Part shown: in pieces, positions 11,639-19,652 of the stretch
How the letters are laid out: each line of letters begins with the position of its first letter
Position numbering within the stretch: the first letter of the stretch is position 1
Source of the DNA: Sinorhizobium meliloti 4H41
Lineage (GTDB): Bacteria; Pseudomonadota; Alphaproteobacteria; Rhizobiales; Rhizobiaceae
Direction: 5' to 3'
Length of the DNA: 64,000 nucleotides
Assembly (NCBI RefSeq): GCF_000375585.1
Contig: NZ_AQWP01000003.1
Location: 312,830 to 376,829 of the forward strand
The notes under the pieces: generated by a model
The model's input: the letters and a program-made list of their open reading frames with translations, nothing else
Databases searched by the model: none
What the model was told of the DNA's origin: nothing
Translations under genes and position numbers: made by a program

Positions 11639-12326
11639 AGTCGACAATCTCTCCGCCGGCTATGGGCCGACGCGGGTGCTGGAGGGGATTTCCTTTTCGG
11701 TGCCTGCCGGCGCGCGGCTTGCCGTTCTCGGCCGCAACGGCATGGGCAAGACGACGCTGCTCGCTACGCTCGCCGGGCAGACGCGCCGTTACGGCGGACG
11801 CATCCGTATCGGCGAGGCCGACGTCACCACGCTGCCGAGCGCATCACGCGCGCTGAAAGGCCTCGGCTTCGTGCCGCAGGCGCGCTGCGTCTTCCCGTCC
11901 CTGACGGTTGAGGAAAATCTCTTCGTCGGCCTCAAGGGCCGGCCGAAGACGGCGCTGAGCGAGGCCTATGAGATGTTTCCGCGCCTCTACGAGCGGCGCC
12001 GAAACCTCGGCTTGCAGCTTTCCGGCGGCGAGCAGCAGATGTTGTCAACCGCCCGCTCGATCCTCGGCCGCCCCTCGGTCCTGCTGCTCGACGAGCCGCT
12101 CGAAGGACTGGCCCCGGTCATCTGCGAGGAACTGATGAAGGCTTTCGCCGAGCTCGCGAAGACCGGCGACATGACCATCCTGCTGGTGGAGCAGCGCATC
12201 CAGAGCGCCCTCGATTTCGCCGACCGGGTGATCATCCTGGAGCGCGGCAGGCTCGCCTGGAGCGGAACGCCGGAGGCGCTGGCGAAGGAGCAGGCCACGG
12301 TCGAGCGGCTGCTGGGGGTCTCTTGA
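11619..12326 (+). CDS. Branched-chain-type ABC ATPase LivF-like
   Basis: Second ATP-binding subunit, 235 aa. Walker A GRNGMGKTT (~37), signature LSGGEQQML (~130), Walker B VLLLDEP followed by LEGLAPV, as in LivF proteins. Of two in-frame ATGs (11613 and 11619), the second is 8 bases after CGGGAG and is preferred. It overlaps the LivG-like gene by 20 bases and is the last gene of the importer operon. Confidence 0.92.
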   Translation: MPAAPLEVDNLSAGYGPTRVLEGISFSVPAGARLAVLGRNGMGKTTLLATLAGQTRRYGGRIRIGEADVTTLPSASRALKGLGFVPQARCVFPSLTVEENLFVGLKGRPKTALSEAYEMFPRLYERRRNLGLQLSGGEQQMLSTARSILGRPSVLLLDEPLEGLAPVICEELMKAFAELAKTGDMTILLVEQRIQSALDFADRVIILERGRLAWSGTPEALAKEQATVERLLGVS

Positions 12327-12368
12327 TCTCGACCGCTCCGGCGCTCGTCTCGAGTTGCCCGTGAGCAC

Positions 12369-13034
12369 CTACACGGGGAGATGGCCCGCAAGGGCCTGAT
12401 CGAATATGGAAACGCCGGCAGCGTCTTTGATGATTACCGGGGTGGCAGGGTAGGCCGCAAGCGCATGGGTCGTGATCCACGCGGACGCGACCGGAGACAT
12501 CCATGCGGTGAGGTTCAGGATGTCTTGGTGCAATGTCGGAATCGGTTGAGCGAGAATGGGCTCATAGTGGGCGATCCGATTACGCAGCCGGCGAAGGTCG
12601 CGCAGCTTTTGCGCAATGATCGCGCGCTTGAGGCCGGCGGTCTGAAAGATCGGGCGAAGCGTTCCCCAGAGGTGGTTCGAGGAGCGACCGAACACTGAAC
12701 TCCAGAACCCGAAACTCAGTTCCGCGATCATCTGGCTGTGGGTGGCCGCCTTGCCGTCGCGGAGAAGCGTCTGCTCGGCCTTCGCCACGCAATCCTGCTG
12801 GTACTTATCAGTCAATACGGCGGGGTCATGGAGCCACGCTGCACCATGCTTAGCGGTCAAGGCACCGTTCACCTTGTTCCGCAAGGCGACTTCCATCATA
12901 TGAAGAGAGGCGTAGAAGTCGGCGGATAGTCGAACGTTATAGCTATACAGGCGCTCGCCCAAGACCACGTCACCCTGAGCCCACCCCAAGTAGGTGGAGA
13001 AGCGATCCGCAGAGAGAATGTCGGCAAGGGGCAT
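12369..13034 (-). CDS. Abi-family protein with HEPN-type motif
   Basis: A 221-aa soluble protein matching what I know of Abi_2/Abi-like (abortive infection) proteins: opening LSADRFSTYL, LHMMEVALRNKVNG (~46), AELSFGFWSSVFG (~104) and RRLRNRIAHYEPI (~148). The last contains R-x4-H (RNRIAH), the catalytic motif of HEPN ribonucleases. Such proteins are linked to phage defence, often as an RNA-cleaving toxin, but many homologs are uncharacterised. It is transcribed against the liv-type operon, has no recognisable partner antitoxin, and the ATG lacks a clear ribosome binding site. The following 420 bases hold no gene, so it may be a recent arrival. Family call good, function inferred. Confidence 0.75.
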   Translation of the reverse strand: MPLADILSADRFSTYLGWAQGDVVLGERLYSYNVRLSADFYASLHMMEVALRNKVNGALTAKHGAAWLHDPAVLTDKYQQDCVAKAEQTLLRDGKAATHSQMIAELSFGFWSSVFGRSSNHLWGTLRPIFQTAGLKRAIIAQKLRDLRRLRNRIAHYEPILAQPIPTLHQDILNLTAWMSPVASAWITTHALAAYPATPVIIKDAAGVSIFDQALAGHLPV

Positions 13035-13456
13035 GTGGAGGGATTGCGGTCTGGTTGCTGAAGGATAGCTGCTAAACTAGGTGTGGGTCTTGTAACGAGA
13101 CGGTCTCCGTGCCATATAGAGCACGTATCCCCCGGCTGGTCACTGCTCCGCACACCGCCGGGGCAAGTTTTTTCTGGGGTAGACAGCAGGTCATAGCGTC
13201 CCCAAGTAGAGAACATTCTACTTACCACAAGGCTCGCTTCCCGCTCGATGAAAGCGTCCCCGCGGACGTGCATGGCATGAGCATCGCCGCGCTCTTCACC
13301 ACCGAAAAGCCGTTGAGGTGAGACGCCTTTCTGCGGGCGCTGAGCCGCATCAGTAAAGCCCCTTCTTTTTCGGTTGATCCTTCTGACCTGGAGGGTTTTC
13401 GCGGCCGGCTTCGGCGGCTTGCATTGAGTGCCAAGCCCGCGACTTGCCCTCATCCG
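13035..13456. other. Gene-free spacer between Abi-like and cyclase genes
   Basis: About 420 bases with a few short overlapping frames on both strands (up to about 70 aa), none with a credible start or a family I recognise. Composition is less GC-rich than the flanks. It should hold the promoter of the Abi-like gene; no clear -35/-10 pair, terminator, tRNA end or transposon terminus was seen. Confidence 0.5.
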
Positions 13457-15406
13457 CTATTTCAGCAGCCGTTCCCGCTCGCGCTCGTAATAGCGCGCGA
13501 GCGGCGGCAGCGCCGCCTTGAGTTCATCGAACAAACCGTCATCGGCAGCGATCTCGCCGCTGTATTTCCCGGCGAGGTAGGCGCGGTGGCGTGCGAGCGC
13601 CGGTTCCGAAGCCCCGTCGACCAGGGTGAAGATCGGGGAGACCGTGCTGCGTCCCTTGACGGTGATGCGGTCGAGCTCGGCAACCGCAAATTTCCGGGCG
13701 GCGAGTGTTGCAGTACGTTCGCCGAGGAGCAGGGGCACACCGTAGTCCTTGGAGGCACCTTCGAGGCGGGAGGCGAGATTGACCGCATCGCCCAGTGCCG
13801 AATAATCGAAGCGGCGGGCCGAGCCCATATTGCCGACGACGCATTCGCCCGTGTTGATGCCGATGCCGATCCTCAGCGCCTTCGGCGGACGCCCCGCCGC
13901 TTTCGCCTCGGCTTCCAGCTCTGCGTTGAGACCACCGAGGGCGGCAAGCATGTCGCGCGCCGCCTGAACGGCATGGACGGCATGGTCCGGATCGTCGAGG
14001 GGAGCGTTCCAGAAGGCCATCAGACAGTCGCCGATATATTTGTCGATCGTGCCGCGTCGGTTGAGCACCGCCTCCGAAAGAGGGGTCAGGAGCCGGTTGA
14101 CGAGCGTCGTCAGTCCTTCCGGATCGTCCTTCATGTCCTCCGATATGGTGGTGAAGCCGCGAACGTCGCAGAAGAGTACCGTGAGCGTCCGTCTTTCGCC
14201 GCCGAGCTTCAGCTGCGATGGGTCACTTGCCAGCCGCTCGACGAGGGCCGGCGAGAGATACTGCGCGAAGGCACGGGTGATTTCCCGCCGCCGCCGCCGT
14301 TCGTCCGCGTAGTCGAGGCCCGCCTGCCCCACCGCCACGGCGAGAAAGGCGAGTGCCGGGGCGAGGGGCGAGACGAACGCATGGCCGAGGCGCATCAGGC
14401 CGTAGCTCGCAAGAAAGATCAGAGTAAGGGCGAGGGCGCCGTAACCAAGCGTCTTCCAGCTCGTCGACCTGAGGACGGCAAGGGCTGCGGCCAGGCTGGC
14501 GAGGATGATCGCCGCGATGGCAATGCCCGCGCCCGCCTGCCTGACGAACAGCCGGTGCACGAGATTGTCGTAAATGGTCGCCTGGATTTCGGCACCGGCG
14601 ACGCGGCCGCGTGAGAAGACCGTGTCGGAGGTGGGGAAGGCATCGACGCCACCACCCGCGATGGTGGGCGCGTTCTGCAGGCTCAGGCCCACGATGACGA
14701 CCCTGTCGCGGAAGGTGCCCTCCGGCAGGAAATTCTCGGGATCGAGCGCCTGATAATAGGAAACGGTCGGATAGGTCCGGGCCGGGCCGAAGGTCTGCAT
14801 CAGCGCCCTTCTCGGCGGCACCGCGGGCTCGGCGCCGGCGACGGTCGCGAGCGTTGCGGCGAAACCGTCCGGATAGGCGGGGATCTGCCGGAGCGTTCCG
14901 TCGCCGCTGAGGCCGACCGAGGCGATGCCGACCTTCGCGCCCCGTGCCAGAAAGGCGGGTAGCGGCTCGATGCGCACGAATTGCTCGGCCTGCGGCGTGC
15001 GGATCAGCGTCTCGTCGCCGGCAAGCACCACATCCGGCCCGAGAACTTCGGCAAGCGCCTGATCGTTCTCCGGCGCGGCGGCCGGTTCGGCGAAGATCAC
15101 GTCGAGGCCGATCGCCCGGGCGCCGGCGGCCCTCAGGGCTTCGATCAGGCGGGCGTGCAGCGCGCGCGGCCAGGGCCATTGGCTGCCGATCTCGGCCATC
15201 GAGGGTTCGTCGATGGCGACGATGACCGGGCCGTCCTCCGGTAGCGATGGCCGGCCGACGATCGAAAGATAGTCATAGGCGCGCAGGTCCACCAGCGACC
15301 ACGTACCGGTCAGCGAGACAGCCGAGACGAGGGCGGCCACGAAAACCGTCAGGGCGGCAAGCTTTACCCGCCGGGAGGAAACGCGAAGCTCGCGCGAGCC
15401 GTTCAT
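13457..15406 (-). CDS. Adenylate cyclase with CHASE2 sensor domain
   Basis: Membrane-bound class III nucleotide cyclase, 649 aa. One N-terminal membrane segment (~16-36), a periplasmic CHASE2 sensor (~40-300, with PVIVAIDEPS and AIGLDVIF), three further membrane segments (~305-385) and a C-terminal cyclase domain (~405-600). The catalytic domain is complete: LFCDVRGFT (~413, first metal Asp), DKYIGD (~456, substrate Lys and second metal Asp), DYSALGDAVNLASR (~540, transition-state Asn and Arg). This pattern predicts cAMP. The ATG at 15406 overlaps the stop of the FecR-TPR gene (ATGA), so the two are translated together and the large outer-membrane protein probably feeds the CHASE2 sensor or shares its regulation. 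Confidence 0.92.
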   Translation of the reverse strand: MNGSRELRVSSRRVKLAALTVFVAALVSAVSLTGTWSLVDLRAYDYLSIVGRPSLPEDGPVIVAIDEPSMAEIGSQWPWPRALHARLIEALRAAGARAIGLDVIFAEPAAAPENDQALAEVLGPDVVLAGDETLIRTPQAEQFVRIEPLPAFLARGAKVGIASVGLSGDGTLRQIPAYPDGFAATLATVAGAEPAVPPRRALMQTFGPARTYPTVSYYQALDPENFLPEGTFRDRVVIVGLSLQNAPTIAGGGVDAFPTSDTVFSRGRVAGAEIQATIYDNLVHRLFVRQAGAGIAIAAIILASLAAALAVLRSTSWKTLGYGALALTLIFLASYGLMRLGHAFVSPLAPALAFLAVAVGQAGLDYADERRRRREITRAFAQYLSPALVERLASDPSQLKLGGERRTLTVLFCDVRGFTTISEDMKDDPEGLTTLVNRLLTPLSEAVLNRRGTIDKYIGDCLMAFWNAPLDDPDHAVHAVQAARDMLAALGGLNAELEAEAKAAGRPPKALRIGIGINTGECVVGNMGSARRFDYSALGDAVNLASRLEGASKDYGVPLLLGERTATLAARKFAVAELDRITVKGRSTVSPIFTLVDGASEPALARHRAYLAGKYSGEIAADDGLFDELKAALPPLARYYERERERLLK

Positions 15407-18400
15407 CAGAACCGCACTTTGACGGTGCCCTTGACCGTGGGACCCCAGCCGGGCAGCCCGTCGCGCACCTCGAACTCCTCGTCCAGAAGGTTGAAGCCGG
15501 CGAGCTCGACTTCGAACCGCTTGTCGAAGGGCTCCCATTGGAGAGCGGCGTCGAGCGTCCAGAAGTCGTCGTGGGTTATCGGCCCCTCCGCTCGCTCGCC
15601 TACATAGTTGGCGGCGACGGTCGTTTTGACATTGGCTGTGCTGACAAAGGTGAGTGCCACCTGGCCCGAATATTCCGGCAGGAAGGGCAGATCACCGCCG
15701 GCGCCTGCCGACCGGTCATCGCTTTCGGTGTGGGCCATCGTCGCCGACAGGCCGAATCCGTGACCGAGCGCGAGGTTTGCGGTCAATGCAACGCGGTCGA
15801 TGCGGCCCTTGTCGAAAGGGAAATCCGTCAGTGCGAAGAAGGGGCTGGTGACCGGGATGGCAATCGAACCGTCGCGAATTTCCTGGTGCTGGTAGTCGAC
15901 GGCTGTAAAGAGCCAGTCGTTCCACTCGGCATCCCAGCGCAAGGCCAGCGTGTCGGCATAGCCGCCCGTGCCGATAAGGAACTGGTTGGGCTGCAGTCCG
16001 ACGATGCCGACCGGCGCAAGCGTGGCAGAGCCGAAATTATAGCCTTCGCGCTGAACGGCGGCGCGCAGCCAATGGCCCTCGACCGGTGCCCAGGCGATCC
16101 CGAGTCTCGGCTCAAGCCGGATATTGTTGTCGTTGACGTCCTCTATGTAACGGGCGAACAGGGCGCCTTCGACTTTGAGGTCCGGGGTCATTTCATAGAG
16201 GACATCAACATAGGCTTTCGCGACCGCTTGCGTGGACGAGTCGAAGACGGCCGGTGAGCTGTCCGACCGGACCTTCCCGCCCTCAACGCCATAGCGCCAC
16301 GTCAGGTCCCCATCTCCATATAAGTGGTTCACTGCAGCGATATAGGTCCGCTCCTTCGTTTCAAGATCGATGGTCCCTCCAGCGCCGCTGGCATCCAGAA
16401 TGGATAGGCTATCACCGGTGCGGAGTTCCCTGAAAAACAACGCGGCGTTTCCGACGTTGCGGTATCCGAATGTATGGCTCCATGCGAGCCCGGAAATGAG
16501 GCCGGAAGACTCGTTCCCTAGCTCAAGGTCAGGCGGAACAGGCAGAAATTGCTGTGTCTCCTCGATATCGGAATAGTTCGCGAAGGCTACAATGCGGTCA
16601 TCGGGCGTCGGACTGGCCGTAACGTAGCCGTTGCCTCCGATTATCCGCAGGTCACGTTCCAGGCGCGCGCCTCCGGATTCAACCGTATCCCGCGGCTCCT
16701 CCCACTGGAACGTACCGTAGACGCTGATGGGGAACGGCGAGACCGCAAATCCGCGAACCGCAGCTTCCCCGACCCATCCGGTATGGTCCTCATTGGCGAT
16801 GAACCCGCCGCCGAGCTCCGTCTCGAAAAAGGGCGAACGCAGCAGATTGACCGTTCGCTCGCGGCTGGCGAGCATATGCGGCTCGATCAGAAGCCCCTGG
16901 ATGAGAGCGGAAAAGCTTGTGGTATTGACCGTGTTCGTGACGGCGTTGGCGGTGAAATCGTAAGCGTTGAAGAAGGGGTTGACGCTGCCGCGCACCGCCT
17001 GGTCGACATAGCTGGCGCCGGTGAAGGGATCGAAGACGGCGTCGCCGTAATATTGACCCCAGGCATCCAACCCCTGCAGGCGGAAGGCGTCGTTGAGCGT
17101 CGAACCTTGCTCCTGGTTGGCGCCGAGTGCCGCCGTGTCGCCGCCCTTGGCGCGGGTGCGGCGCAGGGCTTCCTGAGCATTGCGAATGGCCGCGTCCGCA
17201 TCATAGGCATCGATCGCGATCGCGGTTCTGACCGTCGCCACGACGGGATCGTTCGGGTCGAGCCGGTCGGCATTGTCGAGCGCCTGAGCTGCCGGAACGT
17301 GGTCGCCCTTCTCGTAATGCGCGGCTGCGAGCAGCAGCTGTGCGTTCGAATAGGCCGGGTTGGCCGTCGAGCCGGCGAGCAGGTCTTCCACCGCCTTGTC
17401 GGCCTCGCCGTTCTGCATGTGGTAGCGGCCGCGCGCCACGAGCGCCACGTCGAAGGAGGGATCGACGGAAAGCGCGGCGTCGATCTCGCGCTTCGCCTCG
17501 GCCATCCGCATCTCGTCCATGTATTGTATCGCAAGGTTTGCGTGCGAGACGGGATCGAGCGGATCAAGCGCGATCGCCTGCTTGAAGGCGGCCTCGGCGG
17601 CACGATTGTCGCCGCGCGCGCCCTGGACCAGCCCGAGGGCGTTCCAGATCGACGAGGAGCCTGGGGCAGTCTCGAGCGCCCTGTTCAGGTCGGCAAGGGC
17701 GGCATCAAGATCGTTCTCGATGTAAGAGCGGTAATGTGCGCGCGCCTCGAGCGCCGTCGGGTCTTCAGGGTCGATCGCAAGCGCCCGCTCGACGCCGTCG
17801 CGAAGCTCGTCGCGATCGTCCAGCAGCAGGGCGAGCTGCGCGCGTGCCGCAGGCAGGGTCGGGTCGTCGGGATATTGCTGCTCGGCCCTCTTGATCACTG
17901 CGATCGCCGCCGGAATGTCTTCGCGGAAGCCGGCGGTCCAGGCCCTGACCATGCCCGCATAGCGGCCGCTGGCATTGCGCGGCGGCTCCTCGACGCGTTC
18001 GGGGTTCGCGAGCCCGCGCGAGAAATAGCCGCCATAGGCCGCGATCGTGCGGCGGCTCGGGTCGAGGCCGCGTTCGGCCCTGTCGAACAAGCGCGCCGCC
18101 TCTTCATACCGGTTGGACGAGCCGGCGATCAATGCGCGCACGAGATCGGCACGCGCTGCCTGGGACCGGCTCAGTCCCCGTCCCGCCGCTTCCGCAAGCG
18201 CGGCCTGAGCCTTGTGGCGGCCATCGAGCGAAAGATAAATTTCCGCAAGCGTCAGCCACTCCTCGGTCGTGCGCGAGGCTGCGGGTTTCGCTTCGACGCG
18301 CGCGCGCTCCCGACGCATTTCGGGAACACTGAAGGGCGTGGCCGGCATCCAGACGAAGGCGTTGCGGAGCGACAGATGAAAGAGCATCTGCTCGCGGTCC

Positions 18401-18978
18401 TTCGGCGTGACGATCACGATCTTCGTCGGTGCGCTGCCGATCGCCGCAACGGCGCCTTCGCCCTGCTTCACAGTCACGCTGCCATAGGCATTGCTGAGTT
18501 CGACGATGCCTTCGAGGACGACGAGCGAGGTCCTGCCGTCGGGGCCGACCGTCAGCGTCCAATCGGTGCCGCGAATGGCGGCGGCCGCGGCCGGCGTGTC
18601 GATGACCAGGCCCTCGCCGCCGCGCTCGGCCCGGGCCCAGATCGTCCCCGATTCCAGCCCGAATTTCGTGTCGCCCGCGCCGATTTCCTTGACGCGCAGC
18701 GCGGTATTGCGCCCCAGTCTTATCTGCGTGTGATCTCTGAAGAGGACCGCGAGCGCGCCGGTGGCATTGGTGCGCAGCACATCGCCGGGAATGAGATCCT
18801 GGGCGAGGTCGACGACCCGCCAGTTGGAAACGTCGACGAAACGCACCTCCTCGCCGGACTTGCGGGCGATAACGGAGCCGGCGGCCGGCGAGGGGCGCGG
18901 AACCGGCTCGGCTTGCGCAGACAAGGGCGCAAAAAACGTCGCCGCGGCAAGCAATGCTCCCGTTCTTCTTCCCCGCAT
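15406..18978 (-). CDS. FecR-TPR-outer membrane beta-barrel fusion protein
   Basis: Unusual 1190-aa envelope protein. A signal peptide (hydrophobic run ending AQA, ~23) is followed by a FecR-like domain (~30-190: SVIARKSGEEVRFVD, GDVLRTNATG, AAIRGTDWTL), a TPR region (~245-600, e.g. WNALGLVQGARGDNRAAEAA), and a long C-terminal segment (~690-1190) of alternating polar and hydrophobic strands with many aromatic residues, ending in Phe (VKVRF), as in outer-membrane barrels. I infer an outer-membrane protein whose FecR and TPR parts stay in the periplasm. It precedes and overlaps a CHASE2 adenylate cyclase gene. FecR domains normally relay outer-membrane signals, which suggests a sensor, but ligand and partners are unknown. 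The ATG is followed by basic residues typical of a signal peptide. Confidence 0.85.
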   Translation of the reverse strand: MRGRRTGALLAAATFFAPLSAQAEPVPRPSPAAGSVIARKSGEEVRFVDVSNWRVVDLAQDLIPGDVLRTNATGALAVLFRDHTQIRLGRNTALRVKEIGAGDTKFGLESGTIWARAERGGEGLVIDTPAAAAAIRGTDWTLTVGPDGRTSLVVLEGIVELSNAYGSVTVKQGEGAVAAIGSAPTKIVIVTPKDREQMLFHLSLRNAFVWMPATPFSVPEMRRERARVEAKPAASRTTEEWLTLAEIYLSLDGRHKAQAALAEAAGRGLSRSQAARADLVRALIAGSSNRYEEAARLFDRAERGLDPSRRTIAAYGGYFSRGLANPERVEEPPRNASGRYAGMVRAWTAGFREDIPAAIAVIKRAEQQYPDDPTLPAARAQLALLLDDRDELRDGVERALAIDPEDPTALEARAHYRSYIENDLDAALADLNRALETAPGSSSIWNALGLVQGARGDNRAAEAAFKQAIALDPLDPVSHANLAIQYMDEMRMAEAKREIDAALSVDPSFDVALVARGRYHMQNGEADKAVEDLLAGSTANPAYSNAQLLLAAAHYEKGDHVPAAQALDNADRLDPNDPVVATVRTAIAIDAYDADAAIRNAQEALRRTRAKGGDTAALGANQEQGSTLNDAFRLQGLDAWGQYYGDAVFDPFTGASYVDQAVRGSVNPFFNAYDFTANAVTNTVNTTSFSALIQGLLIEPHMLASRERTVNLLRSPFFETELGGGFIANEDHTGWVGEAAVRGFAVSPFPISVYGTFQWEEPRDTVESGGARLERDLRIIGGNGYVTASPTPDDRIVAFANYSDIEETQQFLPVPPDLELGNESSGLISGLAWSHTFGYRNVGNAALFFRELRTGDSLSILDASGAGGTIDLETKERTYIAAVNHLYGDGDLTWRYGVEGGKVRSDSSPAVFDSSTQAVAKAYVDVLYEMTPDLKVEGALFARYIEDVNDNNIRLEPRLGIAWAPVEGHWLRAAVQREGYNFGSATLAPVGIVGLQPNQFLIGTGGYADTLALRWDAEWNDWLFTAVDYQHQEIRDGSIAIPVTSPFFALTDFPFDKGRIDRVALTANLALGHGFGLSATMAHTESDDRSAGAGGDLPFLPEYSGQVALTFVSTANVKTTVAANYVGERAEGPITHDDFWTLDAALQWEPFDKRFEVELAGFNLLDEEFEVRDGLPGWGPTVKGTVKVRF

Positions 18979-19106
18979 TCTCTGTCACCCCTCGTTATAC
19001 TGAATCCAGTGAATTTAGAGGGGAGAAATGTCAAGAGCCCAGTTTTGGGCGGATGTTTTTACTCGTCGAGTGTAATAAAGAGGAGACGAATAAAGGGGAG
19101 TGGCGA

Positions 19107-19652
19107 ATGGAAGCCGGGGGTAATCTGTACAAACTCGATCTGCCAAGTGAAGGAGCCGGGTCGGAAGTGGCACTCGGCGCCTATTACGATCACATCAGGA
19201 AGGTCAACGACGTCTTCGCCGATCAGATAAAGACGTCGGACCAGAAGGCGGCCTATATCTTCACCTTCATGTTCGCCTTTCTCGTCACTTCGCAAGAAGG
19301 GCGGAGCGTCTTTTCCTGGCAGCGTTACGCCGAGGGCGGCGGCGTGGCGCTGGCCCTGTCGGCAATGCTTGCGCTTGCTTCGGTCTTCTCCATCGTGTCG
19401 GCTATACTCGTGGTTCTGCCGAGGAAGAGCACCACCTCCACGACGCTGTTCTGGGGCGCCTGGTCCCGCCATCGCGACAGCTTCATCCGAGCGGCGGAGA
19501 CCGGCGATCAGGCCTATCTCTTCCGCCAATATGCCGAGAATGCGGACGCGCTTGCGGCGATCGCCTGCGGCAAATACCGCTGTGTCAGCTTCGCTTTCCG
19601 TGGCCTGCTGGTAACGGTGCTTGCCTATATCTGCCTGCTGGCGGTGAAGTGA
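19107..19652 (+). CDS. Small membrane protein resembling Pycsar effectors (PycTM/DUF5706-like)
   Basis: A 181-aa protein with an N-terminal cytoplasmic part containing IKTSDQKAAYIFTF (~42, entering the first membrane helix), a second helix (~75-100, ending VVLPRKS), a cytoplasmic part with LFWGAW and YAENADALAAIACGKYR (~145-160), and a C-terminal helix. This layout (S/ADxKA before helix 1, LPR after helix 2, LAxIxxxKYR before helix 3) is what I remember of the PycTM/DUF5706 family, whose known members are phage-defence effectors triggered by cyclic pyrimidine nucleotides. The ATG at 19107 has GGGGAG 5 bases upstream; an upstream opening at 18954 has none. It is divergent from the FecR-TPR/cyclase pair. 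Assignment from memory of the motif pattern only. Confidence 0.6.
   Translation: MEAGGNLYKLDLPSEGAGSEVALGAYYDHIRKVNDVFADQIKTSDQKAAYIFTFMFAFLVTSQEGRSVFSWQRYAEGGGVALALSAMLALASVFSIVSAILVVLPRKSTTSTTLFWGAWSRHRDSFIRAAETGDQAYLFRQYAENADALAAIACGKYRCVSFAFRGLLVTVLAYICLLAVK

Follow-up and report, generated by a model that had tools for sequence, protein, structure and literature searches.

A conserved Pycsar-type membrane protein gene divergent from nsrA-cyaK: a possible further output of a Sinorhizobium cAMP pathway

The frequency with which Medicago roots are re-infected by Sinorhizobium meliloti is governed by the NsrA-CyaK-Clr pathway, whose ligand recognition and outputs are incompletely understood. 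Perception of the plant's signal 1 requires the outer-membrane protein NsrA; CyaK (SMb20776) is the cognate cyclase, and the cyclic AMP (cAMP) acts through Clr (PMC7529298, PMC13001267, PMC5498481, PMC10463352). NsrA-CyaK signal activity has also been reported in extracts of E. coli, S. meliloti and yeast and for purified E. coli ribosomal protein uL2 (PMC7529298). The other described relative is Pycsar, which joins a cyclase (PycC) to a membrane effector (PycTM). The locus discussed here has parts of both. It occupies positions 13,457 to 19,652 of a 64,000-nucleotide stretch of DNA (the window; positions 312,830 to 376,829 of contig NZ_AQWP01000003.1) in the 6.79-Mb, 46-contig genome of S. 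meliloti 4H41 (GCF_000375585.1), and consists of a cyclase gene, a gene for a FecR-TPR-barrel protein and, divergent from these, a small gene for a PF18967 (DUF5706) membrane protein, here called pycTM. An initial annotation had placed these three genes correctly and held that no described system contains them, which is wrong for the sensor and the cyclase: they are NsrA and CyaK of S. meliloti. The pycTM gene is the new part beside an already described receptor-cyclase pair.

The pair is identified by gene order and by sequence identity. The FecR-TPR-barrel gene (15406..18978, minus strand, 1190 aa) lies directly upstream of the CHASE2 cyclase gene (13457..15406, minus strand, 649 aa) and the two are orthologous to nsrA-cyaK, with 85% (NsrA) and 92% (CyaK) protein identity to S. 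meliloti 1021 and the same gene order. The likely start of cyaK is the ATG at 15406, not 15538, and the two genes share one base (TGATG), as in the annotation of S. meliloti ml28, and not the ATGA given in the initial annotation. The pycTM gene (19107..19652, plus strand, 181 aa) is divergent and 128 bp from nsrA, as the initial annotation had it; its start is taken as 19107 because the longer frame listed mechanically would start within the start region of nsrA and because the orthologue in ml28 is annotated with 181 aa. Both 1021 and ml28 have pycTM beside nsrA, and record CP140934 labels cyaK, nsrA (“signal perception protein NrsA”) and then a divergent “DUF5706 domain-containing protein”. 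Plasmid records with the barrel protein number 92 (84 covering at least 80%) and those with the PycTM protein 72; the best matches are large Sinorhizobium replicons, many of them named pSymB. In the accessible text of the four pathway papers cited above we found no mention of the divergent gene, and the original NsrA paper (J Bacteriol 2018) could mention it. A literature search found no mention of DUF5706, SMb20774 or SMb20775, though SMb20776 is mentioned, and among titles no paper on Pycsar in Rhizobium turned up.

The likeness of the small protein to PycTM, noted from motifs in the initial annotation, was borne out by two profile searches: it matches Pfam PF18967 at 47.5 bits (curated cut-off 27.2; expectation value (E) 2.6e-12) and the PADLOC PycTM profile at 4.5e-16. 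It is the sole PF18967 match in the whole source genome. Among 120 of 252 related proteins, several carry the NCBI labels “Pycsar system effector family protein” or “DUF5706 domain-containing protein”, and profile-profile comparison gives a 94% probability to six other alphaproteobacterial PF18967 proteins, with DQKA, PR and KY common to all. Over 28 PycTM sequences 20 columns are invariant, including N34, Q40 and DQKAA (45-49). The AlphaFold2 model is all-helical (predicted local distance difference test (pLDDT) 80), with helices at 18-61, 79-103, 119-132 and 135-180, and the long N-terminal helix bears the invariant N34/Q40/DQKAA motif. Like its family, the protein appears to cross the membrane several times: on the model, spans probably lie near residues 48-66, 79-103 and 158-180, and a hydropathy scan gives only two, at 86-104 and 162-180. 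Across nine S. meliloti-labelled records (which include LMB1, close to the window's genome and omitted from the S. meliloti identity ranges below) the ratio of non-synonymous to synonymous divergence is 0.12-0.14, and pycTM is under purifying selection. One record, S. meliloti AK57, had all three gene matches broken, likely by sequencing error, and was dropped from the divergence counts. So was S. medicae USDA1037, in which a frame change, from natural loss or sequencing error, interrupts the PycTM match, nsrA and cyaK each being matched whole.

The pairing is conserved. In a sample of 151 Rhizobiaceae genomes the PycTM protein occurs in 30 and a strong NsrA match (E below 1e-100) in 37: 29 genomes have both, one has PycTM alone and eight have NsrA alone. 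Strong NsrA matches are therefore found in 29 of the 30 PycTM genomes versus 8 of the 121 without PycTM (Fisher p 1.1e-22, kinship uncorrected). In 25 of the 30, pycTM diverges from nsrA (in G086 at a contig end); in two more it diverges from cyaK with no nsrA alongside, and in three it stands apart. The initial annotation had left open that the pairing was chance, to be judged by adjacency in related genomes; the co-occurrence, together with divergent adjacency to nsrA or cyaK in 27 of 30 genomes, leads us to reject this. A second sample, the best 80 of 181 relatives from a scan of GTDB contigs, holds the closest relatives and leans toward the linked clade: pycTM stands beside nsrA with cyaK in 73 of these named loci, beside cyaK alone in six (all Shinella; in Shinella WSJ-2 nsrA is on other contigs) and apart in one, in isolate AFS068226, whose other copy sits in a complete triad. 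Because of the cyaK-only loci in Shinella, the tie of pycTM to the cyclase may be tighter than that to the receptor. The block is kept in changing surroundings, since the flanking genes differ: by heuristic open reading frames, the next gene after pycTM falls into 33 clusters (81 loci) and that beyond cyaK into 36 (75 loci), and the window's GntR and PdxA neighbours are kept in only 7 of the 80 named loci. With Shinella and several soil isolates among the loci, the block seems not to be confined to nodulating strains. Beyond the family, this PycTM clade was found in 1 of 289 class-level genomes, the source genome itself, in a draw with three other genomes of the order.

Between the divergent genes lies a putative shared promoter region (18979..19106), which was compared in 82 intergenic regions with start codons picked by rule of thumb. 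The hexamer GTCAAG (CTTGAC on the nsrA/cyaK strand, a -35-like element at 19030..19035, minus strand) occurs in 80 of the 82 versus 3.05 expected from base shuffles, and its extended form AA(A/G)GTCAAG in 73 versus 0.08, all six Shinella included in both cases. On the pycTM strand GTGTA(A/T)TA, in the window GTGTAATA at 19070..19077 (plus strand), occurs in 61 regions versus 0.34 expected and in none of the six Shinella. In 55 of the 59 regions with both elements they are 39-42 nt apart, start to start; the geometry of what we take to be a divergent promoter is mostly fixed. Near the nsrA promoter, 14 of the 82 regions (among them L062, L064, L110-L112, L117 and L118) have the inverted repeat AATCCnnnGGATT, versus 0.01 expected, and the window holds an imperfect AATCCnnnGGATT copy; the repeat is a possible operator.

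CyaK matches the CHASE2 profile (130 bits; periplasmic, sensory domain at 14492..15334, minus strand) and Guanylate_cyc (72 bits; class III catalytic domain at 13640..14188, minus strand). Its active site is, judged by sequence, adenylate-type (D414, K456, D460, S536, N543, R547), as the initial annotation had read it, and both metal aspartates, Lys456, Ser536, Asn543 and Arg547 are kept in 79 of 80 CyaK matches; the eightieth does not extend over the site. The closest solved chain is P. aeruginosa CyaB, and no PycC is found among 35 solved relatives, those listed being adenylate or guanylate cyclases. The pyrimidine cyclases described in the literature have different residue sets (Y50/D94/R97, F100/R142/Q144, F60/K104/F109); clade D PycC also has a Lys, and the Lys by itself is not decisive. 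Given Lys456, Ser536 and the cAMP-dependent data from S. meliloti, a pyrimidine product is unlikely.

Taken together, these observations suggest that PycTM could serve the NsrA-CyaK pathway as an output at the inner membrane, responding to cAMP or coupled to CyaK, a reading to which we give a probability of roughly 0.5. An external ligand would meet the NsrA barrel, the periplasmic FecR/TPR part would relay this to the CHASE2 domain of CyaK, and CyaK would make cAMP. PycTM, expressed from the shared divergent promoter region and sitting in the inner membrane, would either be switched by CyaK itself or bind cAMP through conserved residues that presumably face the cytoplasm (DQKA, a PR that follows the second span and a KY ahead of the third), and would then alter membrane permeability or potential. 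The pathway would in this way have two outputs: Clr acting at promoters, as in the literature, and a fast parallel response at the membrane. That PycTM belongs to the pathway, what it binds and how it acts are all inferred.

Several observations weigh against this proposal. First, known PycTM effectors respond to cyclic pyrimidines and not to cAMP (PMC11224242). No cyclic nucleotide-binding fold was recognised in the model, searches of solved structures gave nothing, whether by sequence up to E 1 or by fold at E ≤ 0.001, and NCBIfam gives no match at E ≤ 0.001. Second, the source genome has 15 further matches to the cyclase catalytic region, which would make bulk cAMP an ambiguous cue. Third, a Clr box, sought in two published consensus forms, occurs in only 1 of the 82 regions (L146), leaving direct Clr control of the nsrA/pycTM intergenic region unsupported. 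Fourth, pycTM is missing in 8 of the 37 NsrA genomes (one, G089, a fragmented assembly), and the receptor-cyclase pair can evidently do without it; 3 of the 30 pycTM genes lie away from the pair, one of them in a genome (G069) without a close CyaK. Finally, no cyclase was seen by eye within about 1.5 kb of other alphaproteobacterial PF18967 genes (11 loci in 10 genomes), and a cyclase need therefore not be a constant partner of the family. In two other alphaproteobacteria (L188 and L189) the PF18967 gene adjoins, by eye, a response-regulator-like gene and not a cyclase gene, hinting at further partners for the family.

Seven of the eight pycTM-less nsrA loci (L098-L104) could be read. All have cyaK, and no replacement effector was recognised by eye; the nsrA-facing GTCAAG is present in six and the pycTM-facing element in one (L099). 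In L104 a decayed pycTM-like frame was seen by eye, and in L098 the GntR/PdxA neighbours known from the window are present but pycTM is not; the gene has likely been lost in both. These loci bear on two other explanations. PycTM could instead be a membrane partner that tunes CyaK (inhibiting, anchoring or coupling it) and so belong to signal input, not output. The Shinella arrangement, in which pycTM faces cyaK without nsrA (6 of 80 named loci, 2 of 30 family genomes), would suit such a role, as would the lack of a recognisable nucleotide-binding fold; set against it are the seven loci where cyaK stands at nsrA without pycTM, the three pycTM genes that stand alone and a family known for effectors, not cyclase regulators, and we regard it as rather unlikely. 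It is also conceivable, with still fewer grounds to expect it, that pycTM shares nothing with its neighbours except the promoter region and encodes a protein of the envelope or of the stress response that is made together with the receptor and does not respond to cAMP. Two divergent elements at fixed spacing could alone hold the genes together, and L099, which lacks pycTM, still has both; but the genes stay paired in many neighbourhoods and pycTM remains beside cyaK where nsrA is missing, which makes so loose an association unlikely.

NsrA matches FecR (residues 66-160; 18499..18783, minus strand) and several TPR models in Pfam, has a putative N-terminal secretion signal and ends in a TonB-receptor-like barrel (residues 717-1190; 15409..16830, minus strand). 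The barrel has about 22 strands by predicted secondary structure, with short strands merged by hand, consistent with a 22-stranded barrel; its model (pLDDT 80, predicted template modelling score 0.80) resembles TonB-dependent receptors (best Foldseek E 1e-16, template modelling score about 0.6). In the nine S. meliloti-labelled records NsrA residues 1-700 differ by about 2% and residues 701-1190 by 24% (synonymous divergence 0.83 versus 0.06-0.16), and among S. meliloti strains residues 1-720 are 98-100% identical while residues 721-1140 fall to 64%. The hypervariable part, about residues 721-1140 (15559-16818, minus strand), has trans-species alleles: the SM11 barrel shares 96% identity with the barrel in the window and 67% with that of 1021, although the SM11 PycTM and CyaK follow their own species. 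The records LMB1, C101, M103 and K101, close to the window, have PycTM proteins 98% identical to the window's and barrels 96, 71, 74 and 69% identical (C101 and M103 matched in pieces). As a control, one plasmid-borne TonB siderophore receptor gene, on other replicons, lacks this spread: it is 92.3-94.3% identical in the listed S. meliloti records and 97.7-98.9% in the close ones. The NsrA barrel is hypervariable and exchanged between species, and elsewhere the locus hardly varies.

The variability is uneven within the barrel. By strand order there are 11 outer and 10 inner turns, with mean pairwise differences of 0.27 and 0.10. With five flanking residues per side, 6 of the 11 outer hairpins are strongly variable (0.29-0.69) and five are not (0.05-0.15), and all 10 inner hairpins are at or below 0.14 (one-sided p 0.013, from hairpins assigned by hand after the variability was visible and so not a blind test). 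A surface under attack, or one that meets strain-specific ligands, would be expected to vary in this way; were one conserved ribosomal protein all that the receptor reads, such variability would be surprising. NsrA-like barrel genes at four further loci (L096, L097, L105 and L106), where no cyaK-like gene was seen alongside, are receptor paralogues.

Directly beyond cyaK in the window is an Abi_2/AbiD-like gene (12369-13034, minus strand; PF07751, 29.9 bits), the only PF07751 match in the genome. Among 35 matching plasmid records the stretch 12300-13500 is complete (98.6%) only in Sinorhizobium C101, K101 and M103; what LMB1 and the S. meliloti records listed share with it is confined to its cyaK-side end. 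The gene therefore appears to have been inserted recently. A 75% relative is found on a 16-kb Neorhizobium plasmid.

The variable barrel, the activity of extracts and uL2, and the Pycsar-type partner together keep alive, at low probability, an immune role for the locus. NsrA would sense proteins of lysed neighbours or a surface agent, CyaK would raise cAMP and PycTM would push the cell into dormancy or make it leaky, which would limit the spread of phage. Signals from E. coli, S. meliloti and yeast extracts and from purified uL2 (PMC7529298) would fit lysed-cell sensing, the cross-species exchange of barrel alleles beside a uniform TonB receptor control would fit a surface in conflict, and PycTM is known from anti-phage effectors (PMC11224242). 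On the other side, the literature searched gave no phage link for NsrA and its published role is the control of secondary infection of Medicago; the single Abi-like gene seen in the flanks looks like a lineage-specific insertion, 5 of the 11 outer hairpins are not variable, and the loops may vary because phages or bacteriocins use NsrA as their receptor, with no relation to PycTM. Carried to its end, this doubtful line of thought would make NsrA-CyaK-PycTM an outside-in, cAMP-using relative of Pycsar, in which the receptor's hypervariable, exchangeable outer loops register danger, be it lysed kin, phage or bacteriocin, ahead of entry and PycTM answers at the inner membrane, with the nodule response to signal 1 a symbiotic use of an immune-type circuit. 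A canonical Pycsar anti-phage system, with a cyclase making cyclic CMP or cyclic UMP and PycTM killing the infected cell, is very improbable: PADLOC PycC profiles do match the CyaK catalytic domain (best 1.3e-25) as PycTM profiles match the small protein, but the base-recognition positions are adenylate-type and conserved, PycC is absent among the solved relatives, and S. meliloti CyaK acts via cAMP-dependent Clr.

A conserved Pycsar-type membrane protein beside the pair is a directly testable possible output of this pathway, and it links immunity-type parts with plant symbiosis signalling. If it answers to cAMP, it would be the first PycTM known to us that is tied to an adenylate cyclase. The swapped, hypervariable barrel alleles, for their part, predict strain-specific recognition of ligands or phages.

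The locus can be set beside three kinds of known system. It resembles Pycsar (PycC and PycTM) in that a class III cyclase adjoins a PF18967 membrane protein; it differs in its divergent gene order, with nsrA mostly between the effector and cyclase genes, and in its cyclase, which is a receptor enzyme of adenylate type with a CHASE2 domain and a partner in the outer membrane, and is an unlikely source of cyclic pyrimidines. The NsrA barrel matches TonB-dependent receptors (Cir, BtuB, FpvA, FrpB) by fold in Foldseek, some of the matches being titled as bacteriocin complexes or named variants; unlike in those receptors, FecR and TPR parts precede the barrel, and no plug domain was found by Pfam at E ≤ 0.001. 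The nearest system is NsrA-CyaK(-Clr) of S. meliloti, with the same two genes in the same order. The source genome has two more CHASE2 genes, three with cyaK, and one of these (C1:379671) adjoins the best CRP-like gene with a cyclic nucleotide-binding domain (C1:381022), a neighbourhood that resembles the cyaD1-clr neighbourhood described for S. meliloti and makes that gene, by position only, the candidate Clr.

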